Assembly (NCBI GenBank): GCA_017856115.1
Contig: JAFMFM010000017.1
Location: 1-33,703, forward strand
Origin: Actinomycetota bacterium
GTDB lineage: Bacteria > Actinomycetota > Acidimicrobiia > Acidimicrobiales > Ilumatobacteraceae
DNA: 33,703 bases
Reading direction: 5' to 3'
Positions 2,656 through 3,985 of this stretch are shown in pieces. The notes beneath the pieces are model-generated. The model made no database searches. It had not been told where the DNA came from and worked only from the letters and a program-made list of their open reading frames with translations. The translations under genes were made by a program, and so were the position numbers. Numbering within the stretch: position 1 is the stretch's first letter; each line of letters starts with the position of its first letter.

Positions 2656-3180
2656 CTACTCCTCACCGAACCACCACCTCGTGAGTCCGCCGTCCACGAC
2701 GTGGGCTCGTAGATTTGCCAGGTCGGCCTCCCCGCTCGACACGCCGTGTTGAATCAATCTGACCGCGTACCAGAACAGCATGACATCCAGGAAGATGTCT
2801 TGCTCCTTTTGAAACCGGTTGAACTGCACCACACGAACCGCCCGAATGACGAAACCCGCCTCCGTGCGCTCGGGAAATTCGTTTGCGTCGTACACCACCG
2901 AGAACGTGCCGAAGTAGGGAAACCTATTCCACCGATCACAGAAACGATGTGGCGCCGCCGGCACGAACATCCAGGAGCGACACAGGAAGTCCTCGTAGAA
3001 CTGCGAGGGAGGGCCGAAGTCGAGATGTATCGAGCTGTCGGCTCGTTCGAGTTCCACGATGACCTCGCCATCATCGTCGACGAGGGTTGGATTCGCGCCC
3101 CATTCCAATGCGAGATCGACGACCTCCTGGGCGGTGTAGAACTCGCGAGCAGGTACCTCCTCGCTGGGAACTTCGCTCAT
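2656..3180 (-). CDS. YbjN-like domain protein (tentative)
   Basis: A 174-residue soluble protein. The core (residues about 15-155) has an acidic DDDGEVIVEL strand pair, FYEDFLCRSWMFVP, then RWNRFPYFGTFSVVYDANEFPERTEAGF, then a long helix with FLDVMLFWYAVRLI. This order resembles YbjN/type III chaperone-like domains, in which an N...FG strand is followed by a C-terminal helix, but I would not exclude an unrelated fold. It ends in WWFGEE. The ATG at 3180 has GAAAGGA 8-14 bases upstream and overlaps the stop codon of the small zinc-ribbon gene as ATGA, so the two are translationally coupled. Members of the YbjN family act as stability or stress modulators; no function is claimed here. Confidence 0.7.
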   Translation of the reverse strand: MSEVPSEEVPAREFYTAQEVVDLALEWGANPTLVDDDGEVIVELERADSSIHLDFGPPSQFYEDFLCRSWMFVPAAPHRFCDRWNRFPYFGTFSVVYDANEFPERTEAGFVIRAVRVVQFNRFQKEQDIFLDVMLFWYAVRLIQHGVSSGEADLANLRAHVVDGGLTRWWFGEE

Positions 3181-3347
3181 CGTCGCTGTCCTTTCACGAC
3201 ACGTTTCATGTCGACGTGACGCCGACTGTGGCTGGCCTTGTTGTTGCAGATCGGGGGGTGCTGCACTCGAACGTGCAGGGTGATGTTGTTGGCGCACTCC
3301 GGACATTGCCAGAGCTGTGTACGTCGTGGTGTTGGTTCGTTGAACAT
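3177..3347 (-). CDS. 56-residue zinc-ribbon-like protein
   Basis: This short frame (ATG 3347 to TGA 3177-3179) encodes a basic 56-residue protein. A CPEC knuckle at residues 15-18 follows an aromatic residue (LWQCPEC); a further cysteine is C34 in HPPICNNK, and histidines H40 and H44 follow. A C-x2-C...C...H set would bind one zinc ion. The middle ([13 protein letters not shown]) looks like the beta-hairpin of a zinc ribbon. The tail is rich in arginine and lysine and may contact nucleic acid or ribosomes (inference). The stop overlaps the start of the YbjN-like gene by four bases, which strongly supports that it is translated. No good Shine-Dalgarno sequence is seen; TAGTGC six bases before the ATG is a weak -10 candidate. 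Confidence 0.7.
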
Positions 3348-3398
3348 GGGGCAGCACTATGCGGCATCGGTGTTCGCAATTGCAACCACCCCGAGAAG

Positions 3399-3429
3399 TT
3401 GGAGGCTCCTACTACGTAGGAGCCTCCAA
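3399..3429. repeat. 31-base perfect inverted repeat in a divergent promoter region
   Basis: Two 14-base arms, TTGGAGGCTCCTAC and its exact reverse complement, flank the three bases TAC. Seven A (from 3428) and four T follow. It lies 52 bases upstream of the zinc-ribbon start on one side and 58 bases upstream of tpx on the other. No gene ends here, so a terminator is not the obvious reading; a shared operator or a small-RNA terminator are options. Confidence 0.75.
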
Positions 3430-3451: not shown

Positions 3452-3487
3452 TTGGTGCATCGCACACCTGTGTGCGAGACTGTGAGC
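3452..3487 (+). promoter_or_regulatory. tpx promoter with an 18-base palindromic operator
   Basis: TTGGTG (3452-3457) and GAGACT (3476-3481) are spaced by 18 bases, and GAGACT lies six bases before ATG 3488. An 18-base palindrome, TCGCACAC-CT-GTGTGCGA (3460-3477), fills the spacer. A dimeric regulator bound there would control tpx. The -10 match is imperfect at its first base. Confidence 0.5.
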
Positions 3488-3985
3488 ATGGCAACTACCA
3501 AACTTGGCGGCAACCCGGTGAACACCAGCGGCTCACTTCCATCCACCAACTCCCCCGTCCCCGCATTCACGCTCGTGAAGGACGATTTGTCCGAGGTCAC
3601 CAATACCAGCCTGCAAGGCAAGCGCGTGGTGCTGAACATCTTCCCCTCCGTCGATACACCCACCTGTGCCAAGAGCGTGCGCAAATTCAACGAACTCGCC
3701 GCCGCCATGGACAACACCGTGGTGTTGTGCGTATCCGCGGATCTCCCCTTCGCCCAGAAGCGCTTCTGCGGTGCCGAGGGAATCACCAACGTGCAGAATG
3801 CCTCCTCATTCCGCACCGACTTCGGCGACACGTTCGGAGTCACCATCGTCGACGGCGCCCTCAAGGGTTTGCTGGCGCGCGCCGTGGTGGTACTGGATGA
3901 AGCCGGCAAGGTAACCCACACGGAATTGGTCGACGAGATTGCCAACGAACCCAACTACGACGCAGCACTCGCGGCGCTGAAGTAA
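3488..3985 (+). CDS. tpx: Thiol peroxidase (atypical 2-Cys peroxiredoxin)
   Basis: A 165-residue Tpx that reduces hydrogen peroxide and alkyl hydroperoxides in the cytosol, using thioredoxin. The peroxidatic cysteine is in the motif [16 protein letters not shown] (about residue 60), and the resolving cysteine is in [10 protein letters not shown] (about residue 94), as expected for the Tpx subgroup. Length and the ending DAALAALK are normal for the family. The start ATG 3488 matches the usual Tpx N-terminus (ALGGNPV region). There is no Shine-Dalgarno sequence; a -10-like GAGACT six bases before ATG suggests a leaderless mRNA. The 18-base palindrome between the putative -35 and -10 boxes points to redox or stress control (inference). 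It converges with the histidine phosphatase. Confidence 0.95.

Follow-up and report, generated by a model that had tools for sequence, protein, structure and literature searches.

A genus-specific, operator-like element in the putative leaderless promoter of a thiol peroxidase gene from uncultured Acidimicrobiia

Introduction

A perfect palindrome lies directly in front of a gene for a thiol peroxidase (tpx) in an uncultured member of the Acidimicrobiia, and the question raised by this locus is whether the palindrome is the site of a regulator, a part of the promoter itself or an accident of sequence. Operator-like dyads in promoters are commonplace, and the operators of dimeric repressors that overlap the spacer and the -10 box form a general class. 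The window analyzed here (the whole stretch of DNA, 33,703 nucleotides) corresponds to contig C46 of genome G000 (1.67 Mb, 95% complete). Searches covered 13 genomes of its genus, all from uncultured bacteria, and 221 genomes of the family, 118 of which have a tpx match, including 8 from this genus.

Results

Position and shape of the palindrome

The features at the start of tpx are listed below.

3452 to 3457, plus strand: -35-like hexamer TTGGTG of the tpx promoter, of weak consensus, whose TT is unchanged in all 8 readable genomes of the genus.
3460 to 3477, no strand: palindrome TCGCACAC-CT-GTGTGCGA, of which the genus keeps about CGCACACC, 4 to 5 free bases and TGCGA.
3476 to 3481, plus strand: -10 element GAGACT (GATACT in genome G001), 6 nt before the ATG, whose A and T are likewise unchanged in all 8.
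3488 to 3985, plus strand: tpx, thiol peroxidase, 165 amino acids, NCBIfam equivalog NF001808 (E value of 1e-71), Pfam Redoxin.

The original prediction, made from the letters of the window, was right about the identity of the gene, to which both family matches attest, and direct reading of the sequence bears out its perfect 18-base palindrome, with 8-bp arms that are complementary at 8 of 8 positions around a 2-base centre, as well as the 18-nt distance between TTGGTG and GAGACT (spacer, 3458 to 3475). Its statement that the palindrome fills this spacer exactly does not hold: the repeat is offset by 2 nt downstream, starting two bases past TTGGTG and covering the GA of GAGACT. From the centre of the dyad, it is 11 nt back to where the -35 hexamer ends and 7 nt forward to where the -10 element starts, and 10 bases separate the end of the palindrome from the tpx ATG at 3488.

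Repeats of this kind are more frequent here than expected by chance. The window contains 13 perfect inverted repeats with 8-base arms and loops of 0 to 4 bases, and 20 dinucleotide shuffles of it averaged 5.25. Two such repeats, the palindrome and a longer hairpin, are located in the intergenic region (140 nt), and at least one was present in 5 of 500 shuffles of this region. A genome search for the 18-base motif, which had been proposed as a check, found TCGCACAC-N2-GTGTGCGA without mismatch only once in G000.

The tpx promoter is probably leaderless

A simple promoter scan around tpx returned no sigma-70-type match. GAGACT matches NANNNT, the weaker form of the -10 box, and the TGC that precedes it makes up an extended -10 form. 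Upstream sequences were read for 82 of the 110 tpx genes from other genera (22 loci plus 60 obtained in later fetches), and 15 of these were dropped because no ATG was found near the homologous start (some have an N-terminal extension), leaving 67 that were scored, with L186 and L194 poorly anchored. NANNNT is located 5 to 8 nt before the ATG in 52 of the 67 (13.0% in shuffles), and the stricter TANNNT is located there in 34 (2.3% in shuffles). TGN ahead of the -10 box was found in 20 of 64 scored promoters, compared with 5.9% in shuffles, and by this measure, the extended -10 form is common in the putative tpx promoters of the family. A Shine-Dalgarno-like core was seen in none of the seven scored tpx upstream sequences of this genus and in 4 of the 67 from other genera.

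Leaderless promoters are recognized by a -10 element about 6 to 8 nt before the start codon and by the lack of a ribosome site, and GAGACT is located 6 nt before the tpx ATG. Excerpts of two reports on actinobacterial leaderless promoters (PMC3160421 and PMC3898074) place TANNNT about 12 nt ahead of the start codon. The tpx promoter is like the promoters described there in the position of its -10 element and in having no Shine-Dalgarno-like core (7 of 7), and it is unlike them in that the box starts with G instead of T and in its long conserved spacer. Since this layout is family-wide, tpx transcription probably begins at or near the ATG, and with the RNA start placed there, the palindrome would act as DNA, outside the mRNA. 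An RNA element or terminator at the palindrome was rejected because a leaderless start would leave it untranscribed; there was also no Rfam match up to an E value of 1 between 2600 and 4100 and no terminator-like site between 3150 and 4020.

A separate observation concerns the tpx genes of genus g23 (L126, L156, L158, and L159), which encode 48 to 54 residues before the GG motif, mostly as a Lys/Ala-rich, histone-like tail, and have AAGGAG ahead of the start codon. To judge from this tail, the encoded proteins may bind DNA.

A block in the spacer is retained within the genus

Of the 13 genomes of the genus, 8 have a tpx match; the match in G004 begins at residue 38 and yielded no promoter, and G002, which is below the cut-off for the match, has its tpx start at a contig end. 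Eight tpx promoters of the genus were thus readable. A 23-base block with the consensus GCGCACACCCATGTGCGAGACTG is retained in all eight. Fifteen of its 23 columns are invariant, including 9 of the 16 pure spacer columns and 5 of the 9 columns of the left half, compared with 5 of 29 four-fold silent sites in the same eight genomes and 15 of 72 in seven genomes. With columns taken as independent and the tree ignored, and the genomes being related, the binomial probability is 0.0005 to 0.002 for the spacer columns and 0.01 to 0.02 for the left half alone. Among the 37 columns directly upstream of the block, 3 are invariant, two of which are the TT of the -35 hexamer. In a control promoter, that of the Rrf2 gene (eight genomes, not all of them the same), no 23-column window has more than 6 invariant columns; the divergent promoter described below, which is without such a dyad, is even more conserved (18 of 23). 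A PerR-like promoter was set aside as a control: two of the seven rows in its ungapped alignment are shifted, which leaves 1 of 90 columns invariant. The block in the tpx promoter is retained above silent sites and flanking DNA in this one genus. Conservation before tpx orthologues had been named as the test of the original prediction, and the element passes it in the genus (8 of 8 promoters) and fails it elsewhere: the dyad, within 2 mismatches, is present in 0 of the 67 scored upstream sequences of other genera and in 1 of 67 shuffled ones.

The symmetry of the dyad was followed separately. G000 forms 8 of 9 pairs, and the seven relatives form 6, 5, 4, 6, 6, 6, and 5. The symmetric core comprises pairs 4-15 and 7-12 (8 of 8 genomes), 3-16 and 5-14 (7 of 8), and 2-17 and 6-13 (6 of 8); the inner pair 8-11 is formed in 3 of 8 genomes, and the outer pair 1-18 (T-A) is formed in G000 alone. 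No pair is altered on both sides in the eight genomes, and given this lack of covariation and the poorly kept outer and inner pairs, the alignment does not point to selection on symmetry itself. The parts retained across the genus are CGCACACC and TGCGA. The latter overlaps the extended -10 element (TGCGAnACT), and as TGN is enriched elsewhere, the right half would be retained anyway; part of it may be plain promoter sequence.

Further occurrences of the dyad

With up to 3 mismatches, TCGCACAC-N2-GTGTGCGA matches 22 places in G000, each on both strands, and the reversed control matches 6. Fifteen of the 22 places were read (L003 to L017). One is the tpx site, L014 is located at the start of holA within the end of the preceding gene, L015 is ahead of an ATG with a ribosome site and is spanned by a longer open frame, and the other 12 lie within open frames of at least 100 amino acids. 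In the genus as a whole, CGCACA-N4-TGTGCG with at most 1 mismatch was found 114 times in 13 genomes (4 to 13 each) versus 82 times for the reversed control (3 to 11 each), and the genome-wide enrichment of the pattern is not strong.

The genus sites examined were the listed non-tpx sites of G001 to G007 in full, 3/4 of those of G008 and 1/4 of those of G009; among the matches listed, none are from G000, G010, G011, or G012, and 4 of 8 are given for G009. Among 166 oriented sites in the scanned loci, the A and T of the -10 element are in register in 15, and a start codon is also in place in 9 of those: seven tpx sites, holA in G000, and a 54-amino-acid open reading frame in G004 (L408). At both of the last two, the dyad is within 1 mismatch and the start codon is 6 nt beyond the -10 element. 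holA (TIGR01128 over its cut-off) starts with GTG, and the product of the 54-amino-acid frame matches no family over its cut-off. As the sites read include neither of the two in a second genome, no regulon is claimed. In 330 kb comprising the window and partly overlapping genus loci, tpx, holA (G000), and the small open reading frame of G004 were the only ones above a score of 6, and the latter two had been chosen by the dyad pattern before scoring.

The divergent genes and the neighboring hairpin

On the other side of the intergenic region are the following features.

2656 to 3180, minus strand: gene for a 174-amino-acid protein, sharing 4 nt (ATGA) with the zinc-ribbon gene.
3177 to 3347, minus strand: gene for a zinc-ribbon-like protein of 56 amino acids, beside the hairpin in nine genomes of the genus.
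3356 to 3385, minus strand: divergent promoter ahead of the zinc-ribbon gene (TTGCAA, 18 nt, CATAGT; ATG at 3347), carrying a similar element, GCGAACACCGATG, at 3377 to 3365.
3399 to 3429, no strand: perfect hairpin TTGGAGGCTCCTAC-TAC-GTAGGAGCCTCCAA with 14-bp arms, between the two divergent promoters and followed by an A/T tract.

No database match was obtained for the 174-amino-acid protein, which we take by eye to be YbjN-like. The zinc-ribbon-like protein has no convincing family (Pfam, E value of 0.07; PHROG, 0.04; NCBIfam, 0.003 and below its cut-off). A relative with 40% identity (E value of 4e-6) is encoded by Actinomycetia phage DSL-LC01 (OQ999401.1), the sole match among 50,697 phage records at an E value of 0.01.

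At register 0, the tpx consensus and that of the divergent promoter agree in 13 of the 25 columns that precede the -10 element, and at other registers they agree in 2 to 9; the best agreement of the divergent promoter with 64 control tpx promoters was 10 of 25, and 86 of 20,000 shuffles reached 13 of 25, the likeness having been noticed before being tested. The divergent promoter has the left part of the tpx element, CGnACACCnATG, without the right half. This is suggestive, less certainly than the retention of the block itself, of half of the element recurring there, and a common factor may act on the two genes. The tpx promoter L185 of another genus, which is without the dyad, shares 15 of 25 columns with the tpx consensus of the genus, most of them on the -35 side and in TGC.

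The hairpin, arguably more striking than the palindrome, is unique in G000, and its 17-base core (at most 1 mismatch) was found in 9 of the 221 family genomes, all of this genus. Its distance to the zinc-ribbon gene is constant in eight aligned loci, and its distance to tpx varies. In G006, there are matching changes on both arms, and in G002, the loop is inverted relative to tpx. No U-run terminator was found at 3399 to 3429. A mobile or viral element was considered and rejected: the core occurs in at least 120 viral stretches, but the stem is unextended in 79 of the 80 viral matches listed, the 45 viral flanks examined resemble another element, and the likeness is taken as coincidence. Upstream of tpx in G003 (L221 and L211), a GCGCGAGCACAGACAACCACGTGCGCGCTT-like unit of about 32 bases is present in three imperfect copies, one after the other, between the hairpin and the promoter.

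Candidate regulators

The original remark that the window shows no regulator gene holds for the ten proteins scanned against Pfam and for three others. The search for regulators suggested along with the palindrome succeeded in part: of the 13 genomes, all encode MerR homologues, 12 an Rrf2-superfamily protein, and none a LysR-family protein over the cut-off, and nothing found was tied to the site. The LysR family gave one weak match, in G003, and its absence over the cut-off makes OxyR unlikely. Twelve of the 38 rows of MerR homologues were read. The three of G000 are HspR and FtsR (both over NCBIfam cut-offs) and a 179-amino-acid protein with one Cys and no model over its cut-off; none is SoxR. 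In locus L237 of G001, a DnaJ gene adjoins the HspR gene. A true SoxR (TIGR01950 over its cut-off) was among the rows read and belongs to G005, which has no tpx match.

The Rrf2-superfamily proteins, one per genome, have a C-x5-C pair and are below the IscR cut-off. In eight scanned loci, the 150 nt upstream of the Rrf2 gene contain no match to the dyad with up to 3 mismatches and hence no sign of autoregulation via such a site. Fur-family proteins are present in 13 of 13 genomes, with 1 to 3 per genome. In seven aligned loci (L244 and L246 to L251), a motif resembling TTCGCATGACTTGCAAATAAGCA precedes a Fur-family gene that is PerR-like by eye, and this motif is a possible autoregulatory box of that gene.

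Discussion

We describe here an element set into the spacer and the leading edge of the -10 box in the tpx promoter, which we tentatively read, with slightly less than even confidence, as a genus-specific regulatory DNA site of the repressor-operator type in a leaderless promoter. In this reading, tpx RNA would start at or near the ATG and leave the element outside the mRNA, and a dimeric DNA-binding regulator would recognize about CGCACA-n4-TGTGCG. A protein bound to a site that spans the spacer and reaches the -10 box would obstruct RNA polymerase at the tpx promoter, so that the regulator would most likely be a repressor. It would be released by some signal; given the function of tpx, one may guess at peroxide or thiol stress. 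The tpx repeat is like the operators of dimeric repressors in that its centre is about 19 to 20 nt before the presumed transcription start and in that it covers the spacer and the -10 edge, and it is unlike them in that its symmetry decays in relatives. Both half-sites are retained in the genus; the right one is that which overlaps the extended -10 element, and the pairs do not covary.

A close rival, to which we assign a substantial but somewhat lower probability, is an asymmetric core-promoter element in which the spacer motif CGCACACC and the extended -10 (TGCGAnACT) are read by RNA polymerase or a one-sided activator, the palindrome being a by-product. The absent covariation and the 4 to 6 of 9 pairs formed in the seven relatives speak for it, as do the likeness to L185, the left part shared with the divergent promoter without the right half, and the enrichment of TGN before the -10 box of other-genus tpx promoters, TGN being associated with stronger promoters in Mycobacterium tuberculosis in the excerpt of PMC3898074. 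However, a generic motif should recur, and in the 330 kb scored, it did so above the threshold only at the three places named above; moreover, the left half is not retained in tpx promoters of other genera that have the same leaderless layout.

Other readings are less well placed. Binding by an established redox regulator from the Rrf2 or Fur/PerR family is improbable. Both families are widespread in the genus, and the C-x5-C pair would be in keeping with such a role, but they also occur in genomes without a tpx match, G004 has tpx and no Rrf2 match, the dyad is missing before the Rrf2 gene, and the motif upstream of the PerR-like genes is different and richer in AT. The mechanism favored in the original prediction, an activator of the MerR/SoxR type that twists a long promoter spacer, is unsupported and, in our view, very improbable. 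The excerpt of PMC1526738 gives a spacer of 19 to 20 nt for promoters of this class, which the tpx promoter resembles in having a dyad near the spacer, one that overlaps the -10 element by 2 nt and whose symmetry decays in relatives, and MerR homologues occur in all 13 genomes of the genus. The tpx spacer, however, is an ordinary 18 nt, and the dyad is displaced towards the -10 element; the MerR homologues of G000 are HspR, FtsR, and the one-Cys protein, and the SoxR that was found is in a genome without a tpx match. Finally, a functionless chance palindrome, which would agree with the near-full symmetry being limited to G000 and with the roughly five such repeats expected per shuffled window, is highly unlikely given the retention of the block in 8 of 8 genomes and the rarity of any such repeat in shuffles of the intergenic region.

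A more specific version of the operator reading involves the divergent operon. A regulator, possibly the zinc-ribbon protein itself (C-x2-C...C, with thiol stress sensed via the zinc site), might bind CGnACACC in both promoters and thereby couple tpx to the zinc-ribbon operon, as a genus-specific peroxide switch in Acidimicrobiia where OxyR is undetected. We consider this speculative and improbable.

In literature listings on tpx regulation, on the half-site sequence, on leaderless transcription and promoters in Acidimicrobiia, and on tpx in Ilumatobacteraceae, nothing was recognized as the tpx element. It is a genus-limited example of an operator-like dyad, ordinary in kind and moderately useful as bait, in which a spacer element of one genus sits atop a leaderless promoter layout common to the family. 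If the operator reading is correct, the element would provide a concrete site for fishing out a peroxide-defence regulator in a genus of uncultured Acidimicrobiia in which LysR proteins are over the cut-off in 0 of 13 genomes and the genome carrying the palindrome is without SoxR.
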